64,000 bases of DNA, from positions 4,980,501-5,044,500 of the forward strand of contig NZ_CP012109.1 in NCBI RefSeq assembly GCF_000280925.3, in the 5' to 3' direction. The stretch comes from Myxococcus hansupus (GTDB taxonomy: Bacteria; Myxococcota; Myxococcia; Myxococcales; Myxococcaceae). Below, piece after piece: positions 31,300-56,472 of this stretch (position 1 is its first letter; each line of letters opens with the position of its first letter). The notes under the pieces were generated by a model. It was not told the origin of the DNA. It did not search any database and worked only from the letters and a program-made list of their open reading frames with translations. The translations under genes and the position numbers were made by a program.

Positions 31300-33875
31300 T
31301 CAAGCAGCCGAGGAGGCCTCGGGCGACCCACCCGGGCCGCCTGGCTGCTCGGTGATTTCGCGCCGGTAGTCGCACTCCTTGTTGGGGCACGCCACGTACG
31401 GGCCGTCCCGCTTGGAGAACTTCTGCAGCAGGTAGGGCGAGGCGCAGGTGGGGCACGGCTCGGCCAGCGGCCGGTCCCACGCGGCGAACTTGCAGTCCGG
31501 GTAGCGGTTGCAGCCGAAGAAGATCTTCCCTCGTCCGCTGCGGCGCTCCGTCAGGTAGCCCTCCTTGCACTCCGGGCACGACACGCCAATGGAGATGGGC
31601 TTGGACGTCTTGCAGTCCGGGTAGCCCGAGCAGGCGAGGAAGCGACCGAAGCGGCCCCGCTTGATGACCATGGGCTTGGTGCACTTCTCGCAAACCTCGT
31701 CGGTGGTCTCCTCCTCCACCATGACGATCTTGCCTTCGGCGTCGCGCTTGAAGTCCTTCGTGTTCTTGCAGTCCGGGTAGTTCGAGCACGCGAGGAAGTG
31801 CCCCATCTTCCCGAACTTGATGACGAAGAGGTTGCCGCACTTCTCGCAGGGGATGTCCGTCTTGATCTCCTCCCGCTTGACGTCGCGCATCTCCGCTTCG
31901 GCCTTCTCGAGCGTCTCCTTGAAGGGCCCGTAGAAGTCGTGCAGCACCGACTTCCAGTTGGCGCCGCCCTCGGAGATCTGGTCGAGCTTCTCCTCCATCG
32001 TCGCCGTGAAGGTGACGTCCAGTTCGTGGGGAAGTGCTTGACCAGCATCTCGTTGGTCATGTTCCCCAGGTCCGTGGGACGGAAGCGGCCCTCCAGCTTC
32101 TCCACGTACTTCTTGTCCTGGATGGTGGAGAGAATGGCGGCGTAGGTGGACGGACGGCCAATGCCCCGCTCTTCCAGCTCCTTCACCAGCGTGGCCTCGC
32201 TGAAGCGCGGGGGCGGCTGGGTGAAGTGCTGCTCGTGGAGCAGCTTCTGGAGGTTCAGCGCGTCGCCATCGTTGAGCACCGGCAGCTCGCCCACGGCGTC
32301 AGCCGCCTCGGCGTTCTCGTCACCGGCGGCCTTGGCCTTCTCCTTCTCCGCCTCTTCCTCCGGCGTCAGGCCGGCGCCGTACACCGCCAGGTAGCCGGCG
32401 AACTTCAGCGTGCTGCCGGAGGCGCGGAAGGTGGCCCGGCCCGCGGCGATGTCCGCGCTCGTCTGATCGTAGACGGCGGGCTTCATCTGACACGCGACGA
32501 AGCGGTTATAGATGAGCTCGTAGAGGCGATACATGTCCTCCTCGCCCATCGCCTCGAAGAAGGGCTTCACCCGCTCCGGCGGATACTCCAAGGACGTGGG
32601 CCGGATGGCCTCGTGCGCGTCCTGGGCGCTCTTCTTGCTGCGGTACACCACGGGCTCGTCGGGCAGGAACTCCTTGCCGTACTTGCCGTCGATGAACTCG
32701 CGCACCTGCTTCACCGCATCGTCGGACAGACGCGTGGAGTCCGTACGCATGTACGTGATGAGCGCCGTCTGGCCCTCGTCCCCCAGCGGCACGCCTTCGT
32801 AGAGGCGCTGCGCCAGCGTCATCGTCTTCTTCGCGGTGAAGGACAGCCGGTTGGCCGCCTCCTGCTGCAGCTTGGAGGTGATGAACGGCGCGGGCGCGTT
32901 GCGGCGGCGCTCGCGGCGGTCCACCTTGGCCACCACGAAGTTGGCCGTCTGCAGCTCGGCGACCAGGTTCTCCGTGAAGACGCGCTCCTTCAGCTCCACC
33001 TTCTTGCCGTCCAGCTTGGACAGCTTGGCCTTGAACGGCGGCGGACCGGAGGGGCCCTCCAGCAGCGCGTCCAGCGTCCAGTACTCCACGGGGACGAAGG
33101 CCTTGATTTCGTCCTCGCGCTCCACGATGAGCCGCACCGCCACGGACTGGACGCGGCCGGCGGACAGGCCCCGGCGCACCTTCTTCCAGAGCAGCGGGGA
33201 GATTTGATACCCCACCAGCCGGTCGAGGATGCGGCGCGTCTGCTGCGAGTCGTAGTTGTCCTGGTTGAGCTGGCGCGGCTGCGCGATGGCTTCCTGGATG
33301 GCCTTCTTGGTGATTTCGTTGAAGGTCACCCGGAGCGCGTCGGGGTGCGCGAGCTCCTCCTTGATGTGCCACGCAATGGCCTCGCCCTCGCGGTCGGGGT
33401 CCGTGGCCAGGAAGACGCGGTCGGCCGACTTCGCCATCTTCTTGAGCTCGTTGAGCACCTTCTCCTTGCCCTTGATGACCGTGTACTCGGGCTGGAAGTC
33501 GTGCTCCACGTCGACGCCCATCTTGCTCTTGGGCAAGTCCTTCACGTGGCCCACGGACGCCTTCACCGTGTAGCCGGAGCCCAGGTACTTCTTGATGGTC
33601 TTCGCCTTGGCGGGAGACTCCACGACGACCAGGTAGTGCGGGCCCTTGCCGCGCGGCGTGGCCTCCTCCTCCGCGTCGGCCTCGACGGTGGGGAGCTCGT
33701 CGTCATCGCCCTTCTTGGCGCGGCCGCGGGCCGCCGTCTTCTTCTTCGCGGCGGTCTTCTTCTTGGCCGCAGGCTTCTTCTTTGCGGCGGCCTTCTTGGC
33801 GGCGGCCTTCTTGACGGGCGCCTTCTCCTCGGCCGCCTCAGTCTCTTCCACCTTCTTCTTCGTCCGCGTGGCCAT
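31300..33875 (-). CDS. topA: DNA topoisomerase I, interrupted by a -1 frameshift in this sequence
   Basis: Type IA topoisomerase that relaxes negative supercoils. It has a Lys/Ala-rich tail (about 1-65), then Toprim (YLVVVESPAKAKTIKKYLG near 82 and ATDPDREGEA). The active-site Tyr375 is in TYMRTDSTR. Four C4 zinc fingers (CEKC...CSNYPDC, CEKC...CSGYPDC, CPEC...CNRYPDC, CPTC...CPNKEC) close the protein. The frame breaks at a G-run (32028-32031): reading through gives HFPTNWTS, while one added base restores HFPHELDVTFTATMEEK and joins the zinc-finger part. Taken literally, the first frame runs on out of register to 31551. The gene is normally essential, so a sequencing error is the likeliest cause. 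It follows dprA. Confidence 0.88.
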
Positions 33876-42393: not shown

Positions 42394-43983
42394 TCAGGCA
42401 GGCTGATAGAGGCGGTAGTCCAGCTCTGGATAGAGGTTGTCGCGGCTCTCGACGTGGGTGAGCCAGCCCTCGTCCACGCTGCCACCGCGAAGCTGCTCGT
42501 GCAGGCGCTGGAACCGCAGGAGGTGCTCGCGCGTGCGGCGCTGCGCGTACTCCACCATGGTGCCCGTCTTCATGATGAAGGCCCAATCCGAGGACTGCGC
42601 GAGCAGCAGCTCCCGCGCGGCCTGGTTGAGCGCGCGGCGTTGCAGCTCGCCCGCATCCGGGAAGTCCCGCGCGAGCGCCACCATCTGCTTCGCGCTGTGC
42701 GTGAGGTGGCGGTAGATCCAATCGTTGCTGCCGTCCAGCCACATGCCCGCGTACCCCCCCGCGCCCCACGAGGACAGCGGCGGCGTCGCCACCTGATTCT
42801 CCGGGTGCTCCCGCAGGTCATCCGACGGCGTCACCAGCTTGAAGGTCTTCTGGTCGTACGCGGCCTTGCGGATGAAGAAGTCGAGGAACTGCGGCCCCTC
42901 GAACCACCAGTGACCGAAGAGTTCGGCGTCGTAGGGCGCGACCACGACAGGCGCTCGGCCCCCAAGGCGTGCGGCGAGGTCTTCAATCTGCCGTTCGCGG
43001 TTGAACAGGAAGTTGCCCGCGTGGACGGCGGCGCGCTCACGCGCGGCCCGAGGGTCATACGGGCGCTTGTCGTCCGTCTTGCCGGTGATGCGGAAGTACT
43101 TGAAGCCCGTGTTCTTGCGTTCACCGGTGGGCTGGATGAACGGGCGGATGTAGTCCAGGTCCAGGTCCCAGCCGATGTCCCGGTAGAACTCGCGGTAGTC
43201 CGGGTCGCCCGGGTAGCCGTGCTCGGTGCTCCACACCTGCTGGCTGCTCTCTGGATCCCTCGCGTACGCGGCCACGCCGGCCTCGGTGAAGACCGGGGCG
43301 TAGGGCCCGTGCAGCGGCCGGGGCACCGCGTCCGTCAGGCCGTGCGTGTCCACGAAGAAGTACCGGATGCGCTCGTTGGCGAGCAGGCGCTCCAGGCCCG
43401 GGTAGTAACCGCACTCGGCCAGCCAGATGCCCGCGGGGTCCTTGCCGAAGTGCTGGCGGTAGTGATTCGCCGCCACCGTCACCTGGGCCCGGACGGCCTC
43501 CGGCACCTGATGCATCAACGGCAGGAAGCCGTGGGTGGCGTTGCACGTGAGGATGTCCAGATGGCCCGCGTCCTGGAGACGGCGGAACGCGCTGACCAGG
43601 TCGCGCCGGTAGCGGTCGTGGAACATGCCTCGCAGGGACTCGAAGTGGTCCCGATAGAAGTGGGCAATGGGCCCGAACGTGGCGTCATGGCGCGTGCGGT
43701 GGACTTCCCGCGCGCCCAGCTCGCAGAGCAGGTCCAGCCGCCGTGCGTAACGCTCCATCAGGAGCTCGTCTCGAAGCATGGAGACGAGCGTCGGAGACAG
43801 CGTCATCGCCAGCCGGAACGGGACGCCGTCCTCCGCCAGCTTGTCGAAGACCTGGAGCAGCGGGAGGTACGTCTCGGAGATGGCTTCGTAGAGCCAGTCC
43901 TCCTCGAGGAAGTCCTCGTGCTCGGGGTGCCGGACGAAGGGGAGGTGCGCATGGAGAACCAACGCGAGGGAGCCCTGGCTCAT
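42394..43983 (-). CDS. GH57 1,4-alpha-glucan branching enzyme (DUF1957)
   Basis: A 529-residue GH57 enzyme. The opening LALVLHAHLPFVRHPE is the first GH57 motif. The nucleophile Glu lies in IWLAECGYYPG and the acid/base Asp in PYDAELFGHWWFEG. A DUF1957 helical domain closes the protein. Such enzymes branch alpha-1,4-glucan to alpha-1,6. The DUF4912 gene lies 25 bp upstream, and a GT-B glycosyltransferase is divergent from that. The trio recurs in several phyla, which suggests glycogen or another alpha-glucan. Confidence 0.9.
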   Translation of the reverse strand: MSQGSLALVLHAHLPFVRHPEHEDFLEEDWLYEAISETYLPLLQVFDKLAEDGVPFRLAMTLSPTLVSMLRDELLMERYARRLDLLCELGAREVHRTRHDATFGPIAHFYRDHFESLRGMFHDRYRRDLVSAFRRLQDAGHLDILTCNATHGFLPLMHQVPEAVRAQVTVAANHYRQHFGKDPAGIWLAECGYYPGLERLLANERIRYFFVDTHGLTDAVPRPLHGPYAPVFTEAGVAAYARDPESSQQVWSTEHGYPGDPDYREFYRDIGWDLDLDYIRPFIQPTGERKNTGFKYFRITGKTDDKRPYDPRAARERAAVHAGNFLFNRERQIEDLAARLGGRAPVVVAPYDAELFGHWWFEGPQFLDFFIRKAAYDQKTFKLVTPSDDLREHPENQVATPPLSSWGAGGYAGMWLDGSNDWIYRHLTHSAKQMVALARDFPDAGELQRRALNQAARELLLAQSSDWAFIMKTGTMVEYAQRRTREHLLRFQRLHEQLRGGSVDEGWLTHVESRDNLYPELDYRLYQPA

Positions 43984-44008
43984 GGTCGTTCGAAGTCTCC
44001 GTGCAGGT

Positions 44009-46588
44009 TCATGAACGGCGGCCGCCCGTTGGCGGCTTGCCAGGAAGTGGCTCCGACACCTCGGTCGACGACCCTGCCTCCGTGTGTTGCGGACGTGAGA
44101 CTCGGGCCGAAGACGCTGGCACCTCGAAGTAGCGGTGGTTCTCGCTGTCGTCCGAGGCACCTGACCGTGTGTCTTCAGGCCGTGAAGTCACGCGCTTCCG
44201 CGACGGTGGAGGCACCTCGAAGTAACGGTGGTTCTCCTCCTCGGAAGGAGCAGGTGCATCGTGGGCAGGCGACGGTGCTTCGGAGCGCCGCGGGTGTGTC
44301 TCCGCGAATCTCGGTTCGGTGGCATCCCGCTCCCGGTCCCCTGCCGCGTCATCGACCGGCTGGCTGCCAACGGCGCCTGCTGCGCGAGGCGTCGACTGAG
44401 ATGACCACGTCGCGGCCTCGGGAGTGCGTCCGGGGGCCTCTTGATAGTGCTGCTCGGATGCACCTGACGCACGCTCGGGCGTCTCGAGATAACGGAGGTC
44501 CGAAGCGCCTGGAGACGTGGCCAGATAACCCTGGTCCGAAGCGCCCGAGGCACGTGGGACATGGCCCAAGTAAGGATGGTCCTCGTACCGCTGGTCCGAA
44601 GCCCCCGATGCGCGTGGGACATGGCCCAGGTATGGCGAGCCCGCCACGCTGGAGGGATGGTCCAGGTACCGCTGGTCCGAAGCGCCCGAGGCGCCCGGAC
44701 CGTGTCCCAGTTGGGGCTGAGCCGCGCTGGCCTGGTAGCGCAAGTCGGACGCGCCCGGCATGCCTCTGACGTCCAGGTACCGGTGCGGCGCGCCCGTGCT
44801 CACGGCTTGCCCCGAGACGCTCCCCTGCGCCTGATGACGCAAGTCGGACGCGCCCGGCATGCCACGAACATCCAGGTATCCCTGCGGCGAGCGCTCGGCC
44901 GCGAATTGTCCCGTCGCGCCGTCCTGGTACCGAAGGTCCGAGGCGCCAGGAATGCCTCTCACGTCCAGATAGCGATGCGGCAACCGCACAGGGGCCCCTT
45001 CATGAGCACGAGGCACCACCGCGCCCGCCCCAGGACGCGGAGCCCCTTCCGCGTAACGCAGGTCCGAAGCCCCCGGCACGCCCCGCACGTCCAGGTAGGC
45101 GCGCGAAGCGGACGGAGGGACACCCGCCGCCGAGCGCTCAGTGCTCTCGACATAGCGTTGGTCCGAGGCTCCCGGCGCTCGGCTCAGCGTCTCCAGGTAA
45201 CGAGGAACCGGCGACGTCACGGCCCCCTGCGCCACACGCTCCGTTCGAGGCGCCGCATCCGCGAGATACCGCATGTCCGAAGCCCCGAGCGCACGCGCTT
45301 CCGCCGCCGCATAGCGCTGGTCAGAAGCCCCGTGCGCGCGTTCAGACGCGCCCACGTAGCGCTGGTCCGATGCGCCCGGTGCTCGCTCGACGCCTTCCAG
45401 ATGCGCGTCGTCCCGCGCGCCACCGCTGCGTTCGCGATGGACCTCGGGCACGTCGAACGCACCTCCGCTTCCAGGCAGATTCACCCGCCTCCAGGAGATG
45501 TATTCGCGCTCCTCGTCCGGCAACGCCCGCGCGGCGGGCACTGACGGGGGAGCCTCCACCACGGGCGGCACGCGAAGAAACCGCACCGTCAGGTCCGTGG
45601 ACACGCCCATGGGGGGCAGCGTCACGCGGTTGCTCGATGCGCCGATGCGCCGGCTCCGCCCGTCCCTCCCAATGAAATGGGCCTCCACGCGGTACGTCCC
45701 ACCCGGTGCCAGCCCCTGGACGTAGAAGCCCGGCGCCTCCAACACGAAGGCCTCTTCCCGGATGACGTGTTCACCATCGAACACACGCAGCACGGGCCGA
45801 GGAGCATCCAGGCCGTCTTCCGCCCGGAGCCGGGCGCCCAGGCTGAAGTCCCAGGACACGAAGAGCGTGTGGGGATCCCGTGGCAACAGCAACACCGTGT
45901 CGTCTTGGTAGCCCGCGGGCAGCGCCCCCAGCCCCTCGGATTCCTCTTCCACGGGGGCCTGCGCCGTCGCGGGCGCGGGCTCCACCAGGTGGTGATGACG
46001 CGCCTCGTCCTCACCGGCCACGCGCGCGACGAAGAACCCCTCCACCACGGGCTCGGCGGCGTGCTGAACCGGCTTGGGACTCGCAACCGGGGCCGCCTCT
46101 TCCTTCGGCTTCGGCTCGACCGGTCGCGTATAGGACGAGACCACGGGCGTGACGGGCTCACGCGGGCGCTCCACACGGGGCTTCGGAGGGAAGTTCACCA
46201 CCGTCGCGGGTCTGGCGGGCGGCTTGCTCCCCGGTTTCTCGGAGGCCCGCTTGGCGGCCACCCGCTTGGGCGCGGACACCCGCCCCTGCCCCGGAGCCGG
46301 CGCCTCTTTCGCCTCCACGCCAGACGCGGCCTTGGACGACCTGGCCGTCTGGGTGGCGGGGGCGGCATGAGGCGCCTTGGAATCAGGGGCCTTGGAGGCG
46401 GCCTTCGGAGCCGCGAGCTTTCCCGGCACCCGGATGCCCGCGAGCCTGGCGAGCTTCGCCAGCGCGGGGACGTAGGCCGCCAGGGCGGCGAGCAACTCCT
46501 CCTTCCGCATCCGGCTGTAACCGGTCCCCAGGTGCTTCCGGGCCAACTCCCTGAGGTAGCCGACCGTTACGCTCTTGAGGTCTTCCAT
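44009..46588 (-). CDS. DUF4912 protein with a GASDxRY-repeat C-terminal half
   Basis: A 859-residue protein. A Rho-N/SAP-like helical module opens it (LKSVTVGYLRELARKHLG, about 4-45). A Lys/Ala/Pro linker reaches about 225. The DUF4912 domain (about 228-345) has VLLLPRDPHTLFVSWDFS. From about 400 to 716 the motif GASD[QLM]RY recurs about 13 times, often preceded by YLDVRGxP, and HRYFEVP occurs twice near the end. The C-terminal half looks disordered. DUF4912 is found beside GH57 branching enzymes; its function is unknown. ATG at 46588; a TTG two codons earlier is possible. Confidence 0.8.
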   Translation of the reverse strand: MEDLKSVTVGYLRELARKHLGTGYSRMRKEELLAALAAYVPALAKLARLAGIRVPGKLAAPKAASKAPDSKAPHAAPATQTARSSKAASGVEAKEAPAPGQGRVSAPKRVAAKRASEKPGSKPPARPATVVNFPPKPRVERPREPVTPVVSSYTRPVEPKPKEEAAPVASPKPVQHAAEPVVEGFFVARVAGEDEARHHHLVEPAPATAQAPVEEESEGLGALPAGYQDDTVLLLPRDPHTLFVSWDFSLGARLRAEDGLDAPRPVLRVFDGEHVIREEAFVLEAPGFYVQGLAPGGTYRVEAHFIGRDGRSRRIGASSNRVTLPPMGVSTDLTVRFLRVPPVVEAPPSVPAARALPDEEREYISWRRVNLPGSGGAFDVPEVHRERSGGARDDAHLEGVERAPGASDQRYVGASERAHGASDQRYAAAEARALGASDMRYLADAAPRTERVAQGAVTSPVPRYLETLSRAPGASDQRYVESTERSAAGVPPSASRAYLDVRGVPGASDLRYAEGAPRPGAGAVVPRAHEGAPVRLPHRYLDVRGIPGASDLRYQDGATGQFAAERSPQGYLDVRGMPGASDLRHQAQGSVSGQAVSTGAPHRYLDVRGMPGASDLRYQASAAQPQLGHGPGASGASDQRYLDHPSSVAGSPYLGHVPRASGASDQRYEDHPYLGHVPRASGASDQGYLATSPGASDLRYLETPERASGASEQHYQEAPGRTPEAATWSSQSTPRAAGAVGSQPVDDAAGDRERDATEPRFAETHPRRSEAPSPAHDAPAPSEEENHRYFEVPPPSRKRVTSRPEDTRSGASDDSENHRYFEVPASSARVSRPQHTEAGSSTEVSEPLPGKPPTGGRRS
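44440..45390 (-). repeat. GASDxRY coding repeat array
   Basis: About 13 copies of a degenerate unit centred on G-A-S-D-[Q/L/M]-R-Y, with spacing from 13 to 35 codons. Four neighbouring copies share the longer form YLDVRG-x-PGASDLRY. The repeats are in frame with the DUF4912 gene. Confidence 0.85.
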
Positions 46589-46720
46589 GGGCAAGCAGGC
46601 CTTTAGGTCGCGGGTCGTAGAGGGTCAACGTGCCAGCATTTCATGTGTTCTTCGCCCGACCCCCCTTCTTCGACCAACACCCGATGACACTCCGGGGGCG
46701 GCTAGGTATCCTGCCCACGC

Positions 46721-49700
46721 TTGAGCGACCTGCCCAGACTGCTCCTGTGCAGTTTCGACGTCATCCCCGGTCCGTCGGGTTCGTCCCGACGTGTGACCGA
46801 ATACTTGAAGGCGTTGCCGGATCGCTTCTCCGTGGTGGTGCTGTCGGCGAAGACGCCGGACCACTCCCACATCGAGAAGTACCAGGGCGCTCGACTGCTG
46901 CGCGTCCCGGTAGGCTCGGGGGACCTGGCATCCCGCATCCAGGCCTTCGAACGGGCCGTGCGCCGGCAACTCGAGAGCGAGGACTACGCGCTCGCCCACT
47001 TCACGGACCCCTTCGGCGGATACGCCTTGTGCGAGCTGAAGGGGGACTACGGGTATCGCCTCATCTATGAGGCGCAGACATTCCCTTCGCAGGAGCTGCG
47101 CTACACCCACCCCCAGACGGAGGGGGACCGGCGCTTCCTGTCCAAGGTCCGCCGGCAGGAGCTGTTCTGCCTGATGAACGCGGACCTCGTCGTCACCGGC
47201 TCGGAGACGACGCGTGGGTACATCCAGTCGCTCGGCGCCAGCGAGGACCAGGTCCGGGTGCTCCCCGCACCGGTGGACCTCGGCCCGTATACGCCCGACG
47301 TGCTGGGCGTGCCCGACGGCAAGCCCCTGCGGATGATGTACCTGGGCAGCCAGGTGGGATGGCAGGGCCTGTCCACGCTGCTGCGCGCGGTGGCGCTGGC
47401 GGCTCGGCAGGAAGAGGTGCGCCTCACCGTGGTGGGCGCGAAGCACCCGGACTGGCAGCCGCATCTGGATGACCTGGTGAAGGAGCTGGGCCTGGGAGAC
47501 CGGGTGGAGTTCCAGCCGCCCGTGCACCATGACGACCTGGCCAAGGTGCTCGCGCTCGCGGACGTGGGCGTGCTCCCCATGGATGATGTGGAGCGCAATC
47601 GCGTGCAGGGTGGCCCGCTGGCGAAGGTGTCGGAGTACCTGGCCGCTGGCCGGCCCGTCATCGCCGCGGACCTGCCGGTGACGCGCGAGCTGGTCCCCGA
47701 AAGCGCCGCGCTGTTCTTCCCACCCGGCAACAGCCAGGCGCTGGCCGACCGCATCGTCGAGCTGGCACGCAATGTTCCACGAAGGCTGTCCCTGGGCCGC
47801 GCGGGACGGGCGCACGCGGAGGAGGCGCTCGACGCGGGACTCATCCGCGGGAAGCTGCTGGACCTGTACGACTCGCTGCTGGAGAAGCGGTCGGAGCCGG
47901 TCTCCACCACGAGCGAGGACGACCTCCCCGCGCCGACCACGGTCACGGGGACGCCCACGAACCGGCTGGCGGCGTTGCTGCCTCCCGAGCCCGCCCCCAC
48001 CGTGTCCCCTGTCGCGAAGGCGAAGGGACCGGACGCGAAGAAGGACGTGGCTCCGGCGAAGCCCTCGGTGAAGGAGGACCTGCCGCTCGTCAGGGGCGAG
48101 GTGCTCGATGAGGGGCTCGACACCCGGCTCATCAAGACGGAGTTGGAGACGAATCCCATCGAGCCTCCCGTGGTGATGGGCGCGCCCCTGCGGGAGGCGC
48201 CGGCCGCGAGCGGCTCAGGTCGGGAGAGCGAAGCGGCGGAACGGAAGGACGCTGCGGCGGAGACCGCGCAGGCGCATGAGCAGGACGCGGCCGACGACGA
48301 GGACTCCGAAGAGTCGCTTCCCATCGTCCATGCGACGGAGATCGAGCCCGACGAGGAGCCGCCGCCACCGACGCCCGTGGTGAAGGTCCCGCCCCCGCCG
48401 GGGCGAAGCGCGTCGGCGTCGAGCTCCGACACGGATGAAGTGTCATCGACGATGCCCAACAGCCGGGTGCCGCCGCTCTCGGAACGAGGCATATCGGCGA
48501 CGAGTCTCGACACGGACGAAGTGTCGGCGACGACGCCCAGCAACAGGTTCCCGCCGCTTCTGGGACGCGGCCCCTCGGCGTCGGGCGCGGATGAGGGTGG
48601 AGCATCGGCGTCGACACCTGTCGTCAAGGTGCCTCCGCCTCCGGGACGGAGCCCCTCTGCGTCCACCCCGGATGGGAATGACGCGTCTTCCGCGACGCCT
48701 GTCGTCAAGGCGCCCGCGCCGTTGGGCCGGAGTACATCGGACGCCAGCGACATGTCCTCGGCGACGCCCGTCGTCAAAGCCCCCGCGTCCCTGAATCGGA
48801 GCGCGGAGGACTCCAGTGACACGTCCTCGGCGACGCCTGTCGTCAAAGCACCTGCGTCCCTGGGTCGCGGCGCATCGGACTCCCATGACACGTCGTCCGC
48901 GACGCCTGTCGTCAAGGCGCCTGCGTCCCTGAATCGGAGCGCATCGGACGCCAACGACACGTCGTCTGCGACGCCTGTCGTCAAAGCCCCCGCATCTCTG
49001 AATCGGAGCGCGGACGACTCAAGCGACGCGTCCTCGGCGACGCCCGTCGTCAAGGCGCCTGCATCATTGGCGTCGGAGACGACTGACGCCGCGGCGGCCA
49101 CGCCGGTCGTCAAGGCCCCTTCCCCGCTCGGCCGCAGCACGTCATCGCCTGGCGACGACGACGCCCACTCTCCGTACACGCCCATCGTCAAGGCGCGCGC
49201 GGTGGACGACGAATCGCCCGAGGCGCCCACGCCGACGCCCGTCGTCCGGAATCCCGTGCACGGCGACCGCTACGAACCGCCCACGCACACGCCCGTGGCG
49301 CGGACTCCGTTCGAAACTGAACGGGACGAGCCCCCGGCCCCGACCCCCATCATCCGCGTGCCCACGGAGCTGCTGCGTGAGCTCCTCCCCACGCGCTCCT
49401 CCCACAGCCGCGGCGCCACCAGCCGCCCCGAGGAGTTCCCCACCCCCACGCCCATCGTCCCCGCCCCATCGCCGCTCGCCAGCCGGAGCATCACCTCCCG
49501 GATGGAGACGCCCGTGGGCCGCATCGCGTCGCTGCCTCACCAGCCGCGGACCACGACGGGCTCCGACCTCGAACGGCCTCCGCCCGTGCTAAAGCCCAGC
49601 CCGGGAGCCTCGGAGGCGGACCGCCTGCCGCCCATCCGGGGAGGTACGCCCACCGCGTCACCGGAGCGCCCGCCCCCGACACTCCGTCCGGGCGCCGCAT

Positions 49701-50287
49701 CCTCCGAAGCGGACCGGCCGCCAGCGCTTCCGCCTCGCGCGGCCACTCCGCCTCCGGTCCCCCGGCAGCGTCCGCCCAGGCTCCAGTCCGTGGACGGACC
49801 GCCCCGTCTCGCGCCGGTGGAGTCTCCGTCGCTGAAGATGTCCGCGCCGATCGCCGGCGGCCACCACGACGAGCCCGAGGAAATCTCCGAGGACGAAGCC
49901 GAGGCCATCGACGACGCGGACACCGACAACCCATCCCGCGCGCGGCCCCAGCCCGACGAGCCCGACGAAATCAGCAGCGACGAGGTGGAGGAAGCGGAGA
50001 TTTCCGCCACCAATGCAGCGCAGCTCATCGACGCGGACGACGCCATCGAGGAAGCCGAGGCCGAAGCGGCCCCGGACCCCGATGAGGGCCCCGCACCGGA
50101 GCCCGTGCCCTCGGCGCTGAACCCGTGGTTCGCCCAGCTCGCGCACGGGTACTGTCCCCCCGACGGAATCCGCTTCGACCGGCATACTCCGCCCACGACG
50201 TTCCCCGGCCGGGACGACACCACGAACCCCGCGCACCCGGCGCCCTCGGGCCGTCCGGAAGGTATCTCCCGCGACAAAAGCTCGTGA
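46721..50287 (+). CDS. GT-B glycosyltransferase with a ~790-residue repetitive tail
   Basis: A 1188-residue protein. The first 390 residues form a family 4-like glycosyltransferase (LLLCSFDVIPGPSGSSRR, YLGSQVGWQGLSTLL, VSEYLAAGRPVIAADLP, PGNSQALADRIV). The rest is disordered and rich in Ser, Thr, Pro and Asp. TPVVK-x-P repeats fill about 547-913, acidic stretches lie near 1050-1120, and a distinct peptide NPWFAQLAHGYCPPDG starts near 1133. There is no signal or membrane helix, so it is cytosolic. It starts at TTG (46721); no better start is seen. It is divergent from the DUF4912 gene and upstream of aglZ. The donor and acceptor are unknown. Confidence 0.8.
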   Translation: MSDLPRLLLCSFDVIPGPSGSSRRVTEYLKALPDRFSVVVLSAKTPDHSHIEKYQGARLLRVPVGSGDLASRIQAFERAVRRQLESEDYALAHFTDPFGGYALCELKGDYGYRLIYEAQTFPSQELRYTHPQTEGDRRFLSKVRRQELFCLMNADLVVTGSETTRGYIQSLGASEDQVRVLPAPVDLGPYTPDVLGVPDGKPLRMMYLGSQVGWQGLSTLLRAVALAARQEEVRLTVVGAKHPDWQPHLDDLVKELGLGDRVEFQPPVHHDDLAKVLALADVGVLPMDDVERNRVQGGPLAKVSEYLAAGRPVIAADLPVTRELVPESAALFFPPGNSQALADRIVELARNVPRRLSLGRAGRAHAEEALDAGLIRGKLLDLYDSLLEKRSEPVSTTSEDDLPAPTTVTGTPTNRLAALLPPEPAPTVSPVAKAKGPDAKKDVAPAKPSVKEDLPLVRGEVLDEGLDTRLIKTELETNPIEPPVVMGAPLREAPAASGSGRESEAAERKDAAAETAQAHEQDAADDEDSEESLPIVHATEIEPDEEPPPPTPVVKVPPPPGRSASASSSDTDEVSSTMPNSRVPPLSERGISATSLDTDEVSATTPSNRFPPLLGRGPSASGADEGGASASTPVVKVPPPPGRSPSASTPDGNDASSATPVVKAPAPLGRSTSDASDMSSATPVVKAPASLNRSAEDSSDTSSATPVVKAPASLGRGASDSHDTSSATPVVKAPASLNRSASDANDTSSATPVVKAPASLNRSADDSSDASSATPVVKAPASLASETTDAAAATPVVKAPSPLGRSTSSPGDDDAHSPYTPIVKARAVDDESPEAPTPTPVVRNPVHGDRYEPPTHTPVARTPFETERDEPPAPTPIIRVPTELLRELLPTRSSHSRGATSRPEEFPTPTPIVPAPSPLASRSITSRMETPVGRIASLPHQPRTTTGSDLERPPPVLKPSPGASEADRLPPIRGGTPTASPERPPPTLRPGAASSEADRPPALPPRAATPPPVPRQRPPRLQSVDGPPRLAPVESPSLKMSAPIAGGHHDEPEEISEDEAEAIDDADTDNPSRARPQPDEPDEISSDEVEEAEISATNAAQLIDADDAIEEAEAEAAPDPDEGPAPEPVPSALNPWFAQLAHGYCPPDGIRFDRHTPPTTFPGRDDTTNPAHPAPSGRPEGISRDKSS
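48360..49460 (+). repeat. TPVVKxP coding repeat array
   Basis: About 13 copies of T-P-V-[V/I]-[K/R]-x-P. The central five repeat with an exact 23-codon (69-bp) period, as TPVVKAPASLNRS plus an Asp/Ser/Thr segment. Flanking copies vary in length from 17 to 28 codons. Confidence 0.85.
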
Positions 50288-50315
50288 GGCAGCCAACCGA
50301 GCTGATCCTGGAAAC

Positions 50316-50345
50316 TTTCCAAGGGTCGCGCCCGCCCGATAGGAT
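50316..50345 (+). promoter_or_regulatory. aglZ promoter candidate with a palindrome over the -35
   Basis: TTTCCA (50316-50321), an 18-bp spacer and TAGGAT (50340-50345). The -35 overlaps TGGAAA-C-TTTCCA (50309-50321), an inverted repeat that could be an operator. It gives aglZ its own start in the 99-bp gap after the glycosyltransferase gene. Confidence 0.4.
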
Positions 50346-50386
50346 GTTCCGGTTTTCACAGCACTTTTTCCGGGACAAAGGGCTTC

Positions 50387-53300
50387 ATGGAGCGTCGGGT
50401 CCTCATCGTTGAGAGCGAGCATGATTTGGCGCTCAGCATGGCCTCCGTGCTCAAGGGCGCGGGTTACCAGACCACCCTGGCGGAGACGTCGGCTGACGCG
50501 CAGCGTGAGCTGGAGAAGCGGCGGCCAGATCTGGTCGTCCTCCGCGCGGAATTGAGTGATCAGTCCGGCTTCGTCCTCTGCGGCAACATCAAGAAGGGCA
50601 AGTGGGGTCAGAACCTCAAGGTGCTGCTCATTTCCTCCACCAGCGGCGTGGATGGACTGGCACAGCATCGTCAGACGCCGCAGGCGGCGGACGGCTATCT
50701 CGCCTTCCCGTTCGGCCCGGACGACCTCGCCACCTTGAGCCGCGGCATCGTTCCTCCTGGAATGGAGGACGCCGCCGGATTGGAGGATTCGACGCCGCGT
50801 GAAGCGCCGCCGCCCATGCCCTCCTCGGCCAAGGGCCCCGCGGGTGGCCCGCCGAAGCTGCCCAAGCGCGAGCGCCGCAGCGCCATGACGGAAGAGGACC
50901 GCGCGTTCCTCGACCGCGCCTTCCAGTCCATCGCGGACCGCAAGGCGGAGCTGCTCGCCGACTCCCGCCAGCTCAAGCGCCCGCCGCCGCGGCGCGAGCT
51001 GATGGGCACGCCCGAAGGCAAGATTCAAATCCTCCGCGACGAGCTGAAGACGCGCGAGGCCCAGCTCGCCCGCCTCTCCGAAATCTGGAGCGTGCGCGAG
51101 CGCGAGCTGCTCTCCGGCGAGGACCGGCTCCACGAGAAGGACGTGGAGCTCCAGGGCCTGAAGATGCAGGTGGACGACCTGCTCCGCCGCTTCAACGAGG
51201 CCCAGCAGGCCACCATCCAGAAGGAGCGCGAGCACGGCGCCACCGTCGATGACCTGCTCCTCCAGAAGTTCTCCGCGGAGAAGGACCTCATCGAGGTCGT
51301 CGCCTCCAAGGAGAAGGACATCAACCTCCTGCGCCGCGAAGTCTCTCGCGCCGAGGAGGAGCTGTCCCGCCGCGCCGGTGAGCTGGAGCACGGCCGCAAC
51401 GAGTACGACAAGCTGGAGAAGCACCTCGGCGTCGTCACGCTCGAGTTCGAGGTCAAGGAGCAGAAGCTCCAGGACACCCTCCTCGCGAACGAAGGCGAAA
51501 TCGCCCGGCTGACGAAGCGCGGCGATGACTTCGAAGCCGAGCTCAGCCGCACCGTCAGCGAGCGCGACCAGCGCTTCGCCGAGCTGGACGGTGAAATCCA
51601 GGCGCTGCAGGAGCGCCTGCAGCAGACGGAGCAGGAGCGCGACAGCACCGTGCGCGGCCTGGAGGCCCGTGCCACCCGCGCCGAGCAGCATGGCGCCCAG
51701 GCCGACGCGGAAATCCACCGGCTGAACGCCGAGCGCGACGCGCTGGACGCGAAGCTCAGCCAGCAGATCTCCGACCTGGAGACCGACCTCGCGCGGACCA
51801 CGAGCGAGCGCGACCAGCTCCGCCTGGACAAGGATGCCCAGGAGGCCGAGCTCACCCAGCGCATCGAGGACCGCGACGCGAAGCTCGCGACGCTGGACCG
51901 CGAGCTGGCGGAGACCATCGCCCGGAACGAGCACACCGAGGCGGAGCTCAACGCCAACATCCAGCAGCAACTGGAGCGCATCGGTGAACTCGAGGGCGAG
52001 GTCGAGGCCGTCAAGACGCACCTGGAGGACCGCGAGAACGAACTGACCGCGGAGCTCCAGGCGCTGGGCCAGGCCAAGGACGAGCTGGAGACGGACCTCA
52101 ACGACCGGCTCCACTCCCTCAACCAGGCGAAGGACGCGCTGGAAGCGGACCTCTCCCGCCAGTTGGAGGAGCTGCGCTCCGCCAAGGCCGAGATGGAGGC
52201 GGACCTCACCGGTCAGATTCAGGCGCTCACCTCCCAGTTGGAGGAGACGCAGCGGCAGCTCGACGATTCGCAGCGGACCGGCGAGCAGCTCTCCGCGCGC
52301 GTCGCGATGCTGGAGGACACCATCTCCCAGCGCGATGCCACCATCGAATCCCTCCAGGGGGATGTGGCCGCGCGCGACCAGCGCATCTCCGAGCTGAGCG
52401 GTGACCTGGAGGCCACCAGCCAGACGCTCGCGCAGACGCAGCAGACGCTGGGCCAGACGGAGCAGCAGCTCGCCGACACGCAGAACACCCTCGCCAGCAC
52501 CGAAGGCACACTGGCGGAGACACGCGGCGAGCTGGAGGCCACCAGCCAGACGCTCGCGCAGACGCAGCAGACCCTGGCCCAGACCGAGGGCACGCTGGCG
52601 GAGACGCGCGGCGAACTCGACGCCACCAGCCAGACGCTCGCGCAGACGCAGCAGACCCTGGCCCAGACCGAGGACACGCTGGCGCAGACGCGCGGCGAAC
52701 TGGACGCCACCAGCCAGACGCTGACGCAGACGCAGCAGACCCTGGCCCAGACCGAGGACGCGCTCGCGCAGACGCGCGGCGAGCTGGACGCCACCAGCCA
52801 GACGCTCGCGCAGACCGAGCAGCAGCTCGCCGACACGCAGAACACGCTCGCCAGCACCGAAGGCACGCTGGCGGAGACGCGCGGCGAGCTCGACGCCACC
52901 AGCCAGACGCTGGCCCAGACGCAGCAGACGCTGGCGCAGACCGAGGACACGCTCGCGCAGACGCGCGGCGAACTCGACGCCACCAGCCAGACGCTGGCGC
53001 AGACCCAGCAGACCCTGGCCCAGACCGAGGACGCGCTCGCGCAGACGCGCGGCGAACTGGACGCCACCAGCCAGACGCTCGCGCAGACCGAGCAGCAGCT
53101 CGCCGACACGCAAAACACCCTCGCCAGCACCGAGGGCACCCTGGCGGAGACGCGCGGCGAGCTGGAGGCCACCAGCCAGACGCTGGCGGACACGCAGGCC
53201 CGCCTCGCGGACACCGAGGGCGCGCTGGCGCAGACGACCCACGAGCGCGACCAGCGCATCGTGGAGCTGGCGGACCTGGGCGCGGCCAAGGACGCGCTGG

Positions 53301-54952
53301 AGCAGGACCTCACCGGCCAGATTGGCCAGCTCCGCAGCGAGCTGTCCGAGACGCAGGGGAACTACGAGGCCGAGCGGGCCGCCCACGAGAAGCTTGCGGC
53401 CGAGACGAGCGCGCACATCGGCGACCTCACCAGCGAGCGCGACGGTCTGCGCTCCGAGCTGGAGGCCACCAGCGCGACGTTGGACCAGACGCAGGGCCAG
53501 CTCACCGCCACCCGTGACGCCCTGGCGCGTGAACAGCACGCGCATCAGGAGAGCCAGCGGGCCGCCGCCAGCGCCCAGGCCGCGCTGGAAGGTCAGCTCG
53601 CCGAGGCGTACGCCCACGAAGAGGACCTGGGCGAGCACCTCACCGTCACCAAGCACGAGCTGGGGACGCGCGTCGCCGAGGTGACGCAGCTCACCGCCAC
53701 GCTGGCCCAGACGGAGAATGCCCGGGCGAGCCTGGAGGAGCGGCTGCACACGCTCACCGTGGAGTCGCAGCGCCGCGAGGAGCTGCTCCAGAACGACCTG
53801 ACGCAGAAGGGCACCGAGCTGTCGGACACGCTCCGCAAGCTCACCCACGTGACGCAGGAGAAGATGCGTCAGGCCGAGGTGCTCAACCGCGAGGTGGCCA
53901 CCCGCACCGAGCAGCTCAAGGCGATGGACGCCAAGCTCCAGGCGCAGGCCAACGAGGCCCAGAAGCAGGCCGAGGGACTGGGCCAGCAGATCGCCGGGCT
54001 CAACGAGCAGTTGGACCAGGGCCGCAAGGCGCTGGCCGGACGCGAGGAACAGCTCCGCGCCGCGGGCACCGCGCAGCAGAAGCTCACCACCGAGCGGGAC
54101 GGGCTCGCCGGGCAGCTCCAGCAGGCGGAGGCCAAGGCCCAGCAGCAGGCGCAGCAGACGGCCCAGGAGCGCGCCGACGCCAAGAAGGCGACGGACGAAC
54201 TGGCCGCGAAGCTGGCCAAGGCCGAGCAGCGCATCGCGCAGCTCATGCAGGACACCCAGAACCTCGCGGCCGACGCCGACGCCAAGGCGAAGGACCTGCA
54301 GGGCCAGCTCACCACGCGGGCGAAGAAGATTCAGGACCTGGAGCTGGCGCTGGAGAACGCGCAGGGCGCCAAGGGCCGCGCGGAGAAGGAGCTCAACGCC
54401 AAGGTGACCGCCGCCGAGGGCAAGGCCCACGAAGCCGTCACCCGGCTGGCCACCGCGCAGAAGGAGCGCAAGGACCTGGAGGCGCGGCACCTGCGGGAGC
54501 AGGAGGAGCTCACCGCCAAGCAGAAGGCGGAGCTGGAGCGCCGCGACGCCATCAAGGCCCAGGAGGTCGCCCGCCTGCAGCAGTCCGTGCAGGAGAAGAG
54601 CAAGGCCCTCAAGGTCGCCGAGCTGGAGCTGGCCCGCTACAAGAGCAAGTCCGCCACCGCGCCCGCCGCGAAGGCCGCGGCGGCCAAGCCCGCCCCCTCC
54701 GAGGAGGACGAGCTGGCCACGAAGCCGCAGCTCAACCAGGTCATCCCGCCCGCGGCCCAGGCTCCGGCGAAGAAGCCCGCTGCCAAGGCCGCCGCCCCCG
54801 CCGCGAAGAAGGCCGCGGCCCCTGCGCCCGCGCAGCCCTCGCCCCCGCTGGGCGAGGACTCCGAGGCGACGGACCGGACACTGCTCATCCAGTTGCCCAC
54901 CGTGAAGGAAGACGACGACTGGACGGCCCTGGTCGACGAGCTGGACAAGTAG
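50387..54952 (+). CDS. aglZ: Gliding motility protein AglZ (pseudo-receiver plus long coiled-coil)
   Basis: A 1521-residue protein. Residues 1-125 form a receiver-like domain close to those of AglZ and FrzS, but the usual phospho-Asp strand reads PDLVVLRAELSD, with Arg at the Asp position. After a linker, a nearly continuous coiled-coil runs from about 190 to 1425, with a heptad-repeat array at 676-927. A Lys/Ala/Pro tail and the acidic end DDDWTALVDELDK follow. AglZ scaffolds the gliding complexes with MglA and FrzCD. From memory, M. xanthus AglZ is about 1395 residues, so this one is roughly 126 (18 heptads) longer. AAAGGG lies 4 nt before the ATG. Confidence 0.88.
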   Translation: MERRVLIVESEHDLALSMASVLKGAGYQTTLAETSADAQRELEKRRPDLVVLRAELSDQSGFVLCGNIKKGKWGQNLKVLLISSTSGVDGLAQHRQTPQAADGYLAFPFGPDDLATLSRGIVPPGMEDAAGLEDSTPREAPPPMPSSAKGPAGGPPKLPKRERRSAMTEEDRAFLDRAFQSIADRKAELLADSRQLKRPPPRRELMGTPEGKIQILRDELKTREAQLARLSEIWSVRERELLSGEDRLHEKDVELQGLKMQVDDLLRRFNEAQQATIQKEREHGATVDDLLLQKFSAEKDLIEVVASKEKDINLLRREVSRAEEELSRRAGELEHGRNEYDKLEKHLGVVTLEFEVKEQKLQDTLLANEGEIARLTKRGDDFEAELSRTVSERDQRFAELDGEIQALQERLQQTEQERDSTVRGLEARATRAEQHGAQADAEIHRLNAERDALDAKLSQQISDLETDLARTTSERDQLRLDKDAQEAELTQRIEDRDAKLATLDRELAETIARNEHTEAELNANIQQQLERIGELEGEVEAVKTHLEDRENELTAELQALGQAKDELETDLNDRLHSLNQAKDALEADLSRQLEELRSAKAEMEADLTGQIQALTSQLEETQRQLDDSQRTGEQLSARVAMLEDTISQRDATIESLQGDVAARDQRISELSGDLEATSQTLAQTQQTLGQTEQQLADTQNTLASTEGTLAETRGELEATSQTLAQTQQTLAQTEGTLAETRGELDATSQTLAQTQQTLAQTEDTLAQTRGELDATSQTLTQTQQTLAQTEDALAQTRGELDATSQTLAQTEQQLADTQNTLASTEGTLAETRGELDATSQTLAQTQQTLAQTEDTLAQTRGELDATSQTLAQTQQTLAQTEDALAQTRGELDATSQTLAQTEQQLADTQNTLASTEGTLAETRGELEATSQTLADTQARLADTEGALAQTTHERDQRIVELADLGAAKDALEQDLTGQIGQLRSELSETQGNYEAERAAHEKLAAETSAHIGDLTSERDGLRSELEATSATLDQTQGQLTATRDALAREQHAHQESQRAAASAQAALEGQLAEAYAHEEDLGEHLTVTKHELGTRVAEVTQLTATLAQTENARASLEERLHTLTVESQRREELLQNDLTQKGTELSDTLRKLTHVTQEKMRQAEVLNREVATRTEQLKAMDAKLQAQANEAQKQAEGLGQQIAGLNEQLDQGRKALAGREEQLRAAGTAQQKLTTERDGLAGQLQQAEAKAQQQAQQTAQERADAKKATDELAAKLAKAEQRIAQLMQDTQNLAADADAKAKDLQGQLTTRAKKIQDLELALENAQGAKGRAEKELNAKVTAAEGKAHEAVTRLATAQKERKDLEARHLREQEELTAKQKAELERRDAIKAQEVARLQQSVQEKSKALKVAELELARYKSKSATAPAAKAAAAKPAPSEEDELATKPQLNQVIPPAAQAPAKKPAAKAAAPAAKKAAAPAPAQPSPPLGEDSEATDRTLLIQLPTVKEDDDWTALVDELDK
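52412..53167 (+). repeat. Heptad tandem repeats in aglZ
   Basis: Eight units that each start with ATSQTLAQT, of 28, 35 or 42 codons (exactly 4, 5 or 6 heptads), plus a decayed ninth. The consensus heptad is TLAQTxx, and units end in RGELD or RGELE. Long stretches are identical at DNA level, so length variation and assembly collapse are both possible. Confidence 0.92.
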
Positions 54953-55533: not shown

Positions 55534-56472
55534 GTGAGCACCCCTTCGACGGTTGAGAGCCACGCCTTCACCAGCGTGGAGGACGCGGAGCAGCGCCTGG
55601 AACAGGTGGGCTACCTGTCCTCGCCGGAAATCGCCACGGCGGCCTTCCTGGCGGACCGGATGAACAAACCCATCCTGGTGGAAGGCCCCGCCGGCGTCGG
55701 CAAGACGGAGCTGGCCAAGGCGCTGGCCCAGGCGCTGGGCCGCGAGTTCATCCGGCTCCAGTGTTACGAGGGGCTCGACGAGGCGAAGGCCCTCTATGAG
55801 TGGGAGTACGCCAAGCAGTTGCTCTACACCCAGCTCCTCAAGGACAAGATTGGGGACATGGTGCAGGGCACCACCACGTTGGCGGAGGCGGCGGACCGGC
55901 TGGCCTCCAGCGACGCGGTGTTCTTCTCCGAGCGCTTCCTCCTGCCCCGCCCCGTGCTGCGCGCCCAGCTTTCGGAGCGCCCCGCCCTGCTGCTGGTGGA
56001 CGAAATCGACAAGGCGGACCCGGAGTTCGAGGCCTTCCTGCTGGAGGTGCTGTCCGACAACGCCGTCACCATCCCCGAGCTGGGCACCTTCCGCGCGAAG
56101 CACATCCCCCGCGTGCTGCTCACCTCCAACGCCGCGCGCGAGCTGTCCGACGCGCTCAAGCGCCGCTGCCTGCACCTGCACATCGACTTCCCGGACCGCG
56201 AGCGCGAGCTGCGCATCGTCCGCTCGCGGCTCCCCCAAGTCCCCCAGGTCCTGGCCGAGCAGGTGGTGGAGGCCGTCGCCGCCATCCGCACCTTGGACTT
56301 GAAGAAGGCACCTTCCATCAGCGAGACGCTGGACTGGGCCCAGAGCCTGGCCCTGCTGAACGCCGACCAGCTCACCGCGGACGTGGTGGCCTCCACGCTC
56401 AACCTCGTCCTCAAATACGAAGGCGATATCGAGAAGGCGAAGTCCAACCTCTCGCAAATCGCCCAGGCCTGA
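55534..56472 (+). CDS. MoxR-family AAA+ ATPase
   Basis: A 312-residue AAA+ ATPase of the MoxR group, which act as chaperones for metal or cofactor insertion and protein maturation. Walker A GPAGVGKTE starts at 51, Walker B LLLVDEIDKADPEFEAF is near 152, and sensor 1 VLLTSNAARELSDAL is near 203. Unlike many MoxR loci, no VWA-domain partner follows. It starts at GTG. A weak -24/-12-like sequence (TGGCA at 55486, GC at 55499) lies upstream but its -12 is poor. The patatin gene follows after 16 bp, so they probably share a transcript. Confidence 0.88.
   Translation: MSTPSTVESHAFTSVEDAEQRLEQVGYLSSPEIATAAFLADRMNKPILVEGPAGVGKTELAKALAQALGREFIRLQCYEGLDEAKALYEWEYAKQLLYTQLLKDKIGDMVQGTTTLAEAADRLASSDAVFFSERFLLPRPVLRAQLSERPALLLVDEIDKADPEFEAFLLEVLSDNAVTIPELGTFRAKHIPRVLLTSNAARELSDALKRRCLHLHIDFPDRERELRIVRSRLPQVPQVLAEQVVEAVAAIRTLDLKKAPSISETLDWAQSLALLNADQLTADVVASTLNLVLKYEGDIEKAKSNLSQIAQA

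Follow-up and report, generated by a model that had tools for sequence, protein, structure and literature searches.

Binding to MglA and a requirement for gliding are features by which AglZ of the FrzS/AglZ group is recognized. The paralogues AglZ and FrzS both lack a functional phosphorylation site and, apart from substitutions, differ mainly in the length of the coiled coil, which spans 1076 residues in Myxococcus xanthus AglZ versus 235 in FrzS (PMC4546325). Low-complexity repeats of prokaryotic proteins have been surveyed as well (PMC6821194).

In this study, we analyzed a window of 64,000 nucleotides (positions 4980501-5044500 of the complete, single-contig 9.49 Mb genome of Myxococcus hansupus) in which aglZ stands next to two other genes with internal repeats. 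Like M. xanthus AglZ (MXAN_2991) and FrzS, the AglZ of the window consists of a FrzS-like pseudo-receiver followed by a long coiled coil; its heptad array is longer, with 313 residues between anchors versus 180 and 250 in loci L010 and L011. It had been suggested from a sequence-only reading of the window that the three neighbors form a hotspot of length variation with a shared cause. Our analysis bears out the repeats and the variation in their lengths. It gives no support to a common cause specific to the locus, which is unremarkable as a hotspot.

Organization of the locus

The genes considered here are as follows.

42394-44160, minus strand: GH57-type branching enzyme gene, downstream of the DUF4912 gene (Pfam PF09210, E=6.3e-40, and PF03065)
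44009-46594, minus strand: DUF4912 gene, 861 codons, encoding an N-terminal helical Rho_N-like module, a DUF4912 domain, and a C-terminal motif-rich tail
46721-50287, plus strand: glycosyltransferase-like (GT-like) gene, 1188 codons
50387-54952, plus strand: aglZ, 1521 codons, encoding a FrzS-like pseudo-receiver and a long coiled coil
55534-56472, plus strand: MadB-like AAA ATPase gene, used as a length control

The open reading frames of the DUF4912, GT-like, and aglZ genes and their neighbor relations were checked on the sequence and confirmed. The DUF4912 gene is called with a TTG start; the true start is probably an ATG two codons in. The true start of the branching enzyme probably lies inside the listed frame, because that frame overlaps the DUF4912 frame at 44009-44160. 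The DUF4912 gene is divergent from GT-aglZ; the locus is transcribed in two directions and is not a single operon.

The locus was examined in 26 congeners, in further members of the family and the order, and in named records. The order branching enzyme-DUF4912-GT-aglZ is maintained throughout the family in all contigs of sufficient length. One record, L096 (BNCN01000003.1), is labeled Comamonas sp. KCTC 72670 and is clearly a Myxococcus, with 97-99% identity to the window genome in the AglZ N-terminus and the GT domain. No paper was found on MXAN_2988-2990; only MXAN_2991 is mentioned in the literature looked at.

Repeats and their frequency in the genome

Repeats were measured by the maximum off-diagonal score of each protein against itself and by Tandem Repeats Finder (TRF). 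Background rates were taken from 40 stretches of 20 kb, evenly sampled from the same genome (800 kb); the DUF4912 frame is absent from the background gene calls and was scored separately. A statistic based on shuffled coverage was rejected, since biased composition alone yields high self-similarity.

Tandem arrays at the DNA level were detected in aglZ and in the GT-like gene (TRF scores up to 1140 and 595, respectively), and for these two the earlier description of three neighbors with distinct long tandem repeats holds. It does not hold for the DUF4912 gene (44009-46594), in which TRF gave no row at a score of 50 or more; what this gene encodes is a recurrent motif, with a protein-level off-diagonal score of 125. 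The same description had the rest of the window free of arrays, which is nearly right, as only short repeats were found elsewhere, for example at 33729-33838. The latter repeat is Lys/Ala-rich and lies near the start of a topoisomerase I-like (topA-like) frame (31551-33875, minus strand).

Internal repeats at least as strong as that of the DUF4912 protein occurred in 18 of 523 sampled genes (3.4%), and 16 DNA arrays with a TRF score of at least 150 were counted in the 800 kb. At a slightly lower score threshold the sample held two adjacent pairs of repeat genes; no triple was seen in it. By our own estimate, chance alone would give about 0.25 such triples per genome (~6,000 genes at 3.4%), with the threshold picked post hoc as the weakest of the three genes. 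Three strong-repeat genes in a row are therefore uncommon and mildly improbable, and a special cause is not demanded. As in the surveyed prokaryotic low-complexity repeats (PMC6821194), the repeats are in-frame, sit in flexible parts of the proteins, and are common in this genome; they are the same in kind, and the sole oddity is that three stand in a row.

Length variation among relatives

The arrays had been expected to change length, and lengths do vary in all three regions. Across 21 congeners, with one genome compared per species, the GT-like protein has 1013-1819 residues, the DUF4912 protein 510-861, and the AglZ array 180-313, so that unit counts are not fixed across relatives. Flanking genes are near-fixed in length (MadB, 312 residues in 21 of 21 congeners; HtrA, 484-502).

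Many of the relatives are short-read drafts with contigs that end inside arrays, often in the GT tail (e.g., L098-L100, L104-L108, L111), and some of these lengths may be collapsed; the aglZ frame of L009 (G018) contains Ns. It is nevertheless very improbable that the differences are mostly assembly artefacts, an explanation that the earlier reading had itself raised. All three regions still vary when the comparison is limited to genomes of one or two contigs, among which the AglZ arrays measure 201, 243, 250, 306, and 313 residues and the GT-like proteins 1036-1819, and the reading frames remain open.

In the family outgroups L031-L033 and L035, the GT-like proteins (575-792 residues) have no TPVVK arrays and the DUF4912 proteins (340-605 residues) no GASD arrays. 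As these outgroups keep the gene order without those arrays, the order is older than both. The DUF4912 tail of L031 repeats a GSSEQRxWSxG motif instead, and that of L032 has a single similar GSSDQ copy near its end; in L031, which is from another genus, the same tail position is thus filled by a different recurring motif. The AglZ array is present in other genera, mostly in shorter form, and it predates those of the GT-like and DUF4912 genes.

Shared cause or independent turnover

In a true hotspot, the three genes would expand and contract together owing to some feature of the locus, be it replication, recombination, or selection that acts on motility or surface. The adjacency of the three genes and the breaks of short-read contigs inside the GT tail speak for such a feature. 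Independent contrasts of lengths were computed with a phylogeny of the conserved domains inferred by IQ-TREE. Within the genus the three regions vary independently: none of the contrasts was significant (DUF4912-GT, r=-0.34, p=0.13; DUF4912-AglZ, r=0.21, p=0.36; GT-AglZ, r=0.19, p=0.41). Among the six tests, the only hint of coupling came from the family-wide DUF4912-AglZ contrast (r=0.46, p=0.008).

Array genes outside the locus vary too. Variability controls were limited to two background array genes, both unrelated to the locus, and these vary comparably, one from 430 to 714 residues and an SbcC-like gene mostly from 1293 to 1683. The SbcC-like gene (L072 818-4945; G000:C1:7464496) has an array of the 10-residue unit AASAALSGVD, and the full protein differs greatly in length among species of the genus; one draft genome has a 1020-residue SbcC frame, possibly the result of a contig or frame problem. 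Correlations with an unrelated array gene were of the same magnitude as those among the three. The arrays are also unrelated in DNA, sharing a single 19-bp match only, and two of them are absent from the outgroups. With near-fixed flanking genes, and with the DUF4912 gene divergently transcribed beside the GH57 branching enzyme, we regard a hotspot with a shared cause as quite improbable.

The AglZ coiled coil

52406-53236, plus strand: AglZ heptad array, ~39.6 heptads in super-units of 28, 35, and 42 codons (TRF)

The best phmmer match of the AglZ N-terminal receiver-like domain is FrzS (2gkg, E=5.6e-17), and Pfam assigns it to Response_reg. On inspection, the phospho-acceptor Asp is absent (LVVLRAELS, with Arg at the Asp position of receivers), in agreement with PMC4546325. 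Sequence inspection and alignment indicate a very long coil, with heptad-like sequence extending over ~1200 residues beyond residue 205. The array is built of heptads of the type xTLAQTx and contains eight GELxATS units, which after a first unit of 42 are spaced by 28 or 35 residues. In one other record, L119 (Archangium lansinium), the aglZ frame stops at 398 residues, unlike in complete relatives, probably by an assembly frameshift.

Between fixed anchors, the length of the array equals 5 modulo 7 in 31 of 31 loci, over at least 16 inferred changes. Lengths for the final statistics were taken from the full alignment; in L019, L020, and L023 the aligner had shifted three residues over the array border, and the sum of the first coil and the array is a multiple of 7. 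Within its array, the coiled coil gains or loses whole seven-residue turns only, and the register is kept. In the remainder of the coil, which has no DNA array, indels are mostly of 7, 11, 14, 18, 21, 29, 42, 46, and 53 residues, with some of 3, 4, and 6. Those of the linker and C-terminal tail are almost all of 1-6 residues, and multiples of 7 make up 4 of 85. A 21-bp DNA unit alone would produce multiples of 7, so the quantization by itself is no proof of selection. Because the rest of the coil also shows coil-compatible indels and the family as a whole maintains the phase, selection on the register of the coil is favored over 21-bp slippage alone.

The whole-heptad changes of the AglZ array resemble those of coiled-coil proteins that vary by coil-compatible quanta. 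They differ in that the variation occurs among close species and in a recent DNA array. No published account of length variation in the AglZ array was found in the literature looked at.

The GT-like protein and its end motif

46721-47887, plus strand: GT-B glycosyltransferase-like domain, residues 1-389 (Pfam Glyco_trans_1_4, E=1.1e-20; confident in the model)
48371-49411, plus strand: TPVVKxP repeat region, 12 motifs, within the predicted disordered tail
48677-49062, plus strand: 69-bp DNA array (TRF score 595)
50111-50215, plus strand: C-terminal motif, residues 1131-1165, S-x-L-[ND]-P-W-[FL]-A-Q-[LV]-x-H-G-Y-C-P-P...PPT-x-[FM]-P-G-[RK]-D

The protein resembles glycosyltransferases of the GT4/GT-B type (Tll1590 6kih, MshA, PimB-type) in its two-domain GT-B signature, as judged from sequence matches to Pfam and to the PDB, where 6kih is the nearest solved chain (E=1.8e-14). 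Together with the secondary structure of the model, these matches point to a GT-B fold with a GT1/GT4 signature. It differs from those enzymes in having Gly297 in EX7E, a long tail predicted to be disordered, and a private conserved C-terminal motif. The EX7E motif is a feature of retaining GT4 glycosyltransferases. Here the first Glu is replaced by Gly297, and Glu at this position is absent from every related locus examined; the second (E305) is kept in nearly all of 27 aligned proteins. Since the first Glu is Gly, catalysis of the retaining GT4 kind does not appear assured, and we refer to the protein as GT-like rather than as a confirmed active GT4. It may be catalytically unusual. Models of defense families matched neither the GT-like nor the DUF4912 protein.

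In the structural model a fold is predicted for residues 1-389 only, and nearly all of residues 390-1134 have pLDDT below 50. The tail, predicted to be disordered, ranges from 190 to 1434 residues among relatives. Its 12 motifs in the window protein have the form TP[VI][VI][KRA], and five consecutive steps are exactly 23 codons long (TPVVKAP units). Concerted evolution of the 69-bp units was considered for the two closest species and was not clear, as the similarity of units was about equal between and within species. The dN/dS ratio is 0.17-0.39 in the tail versus 0.02-0.16 in the domain.

At the end of this hypervariable tail, directly before aglZ, stands a conserved motif (NPWFAQLAHGYCPPE...HTPPTTFPGRD in the window protein). 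S1131, W1136, G1143, Y1144, P1146, R1154, and G1163 are invariant in the 27 aligned proteins. The motif was found in 34 of 37 family genomes searched, by coordinates immediately upstream of aglZ, at a distance of ~160 bp. The distant loci L039, L040, L042, and L137 have a reduced form. In six of seven species pairs the motif evolves at a lower rate than the tail. The tail would serve as a hypervariable spacer ahead of a deeply conserved C-terminal motif.

The GT-like protein might be an uncharacterized partner of the AglZ scaffold. Its end motif, on a disordered tether, would bind AglZ or its partners and dock to the gliding or polarity machinery, bringing a sugar-processing enzyme to the gliding complexes; the tail and the coil would tune the reach, with lengths that differ among species. 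In the loci that include both genes, these lie side by side on one strand, and the position and conservation of the motif are consistent with such a partnership. However, a search of the genome gave no convincing second copy of the motif (single copy at E<0.01) and hence no other protein that hints at a partner. A short predicted helix (residues 1135-1141) coincides with the motif, but its placement in the model is not confident. In addition, L041 has an aglZ-like gene without a GT-like gene beside it, and in L034 the GT is divergent and has no such motif. We therefore consider docking of the motif unlikely, and a role of the protein as a scaffold partner is likewise doubtful.

The DUF4912 protein

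45593-45910, minus strand: DUF4912 domain, residues 229-334 (Pfam PF16258, E=3.4e-15)
44141-45376, minus strand: DUF4912 tail with GAS[DE] motifs, 15 copies, 14 of them within residues 407-717

The Pfam match of the domain scores 56.8 bits against a curated cut-off of 29.4. In the structural model this block has pLDDT mostly of 83-96, and its structural matches are filled by FN3 chains (best Z 9.7); the domain is predicted to be an FN3-like beta sandwich. The N-terminal helices are similar to Rho_N at E=0.0011, a match that falls short of the curated cut-off. The motifs of the tail, of the form GASD(Q/L/M)RY, are spaced irregularly by 7-101 residues. No convincing second copy of the GASD units was found elsewhere in the genome, and a search for a solved structure related by sequence to the protein yielded none, as did one for a study of the domain in the literature looked at. 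A glycan-related role is plausible, because the gene adjoins that of the branching enzyme.

Origin and meaning of the variation

Independent in-frame turnover of repeats in a repeat-rich genus, filtered separately by each protein, is probably what has shaped the three regions. The arrays would have gained and lost units independently, by slippage or unequal recombination between GC-rich units, and such repeats would be ordinary in the genus, with about 3% of genes carrying them. Each host protein would screen these changes according to its particular constraint. AglZ would retain changes of whole heptads only, so that the coil lengthens or shortens with its register intact. In the GT-like protein the repeats would sit in a disordered tail and set the distance between the enzyme domain and the conserved C-terminal motif. 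The DUF4912 protein would carry recurring copies of a short motif in a flexible tail after its FN3-like domain. Spacing and multivalent binding are candidate roles for the repeats.

Within one genus the AglZ arrays of 180-313 residues correspond, by our own conversion, to ~27 to 46 nm if fully helical. In this natural series coil length varies and register is kept, and the effect of scaffold length on gliding could be tested on alleles that these species already carry. Beside aglZ, the conserved end motif of the GT-like protein would offer a concrete and cheap target for an interaction test.
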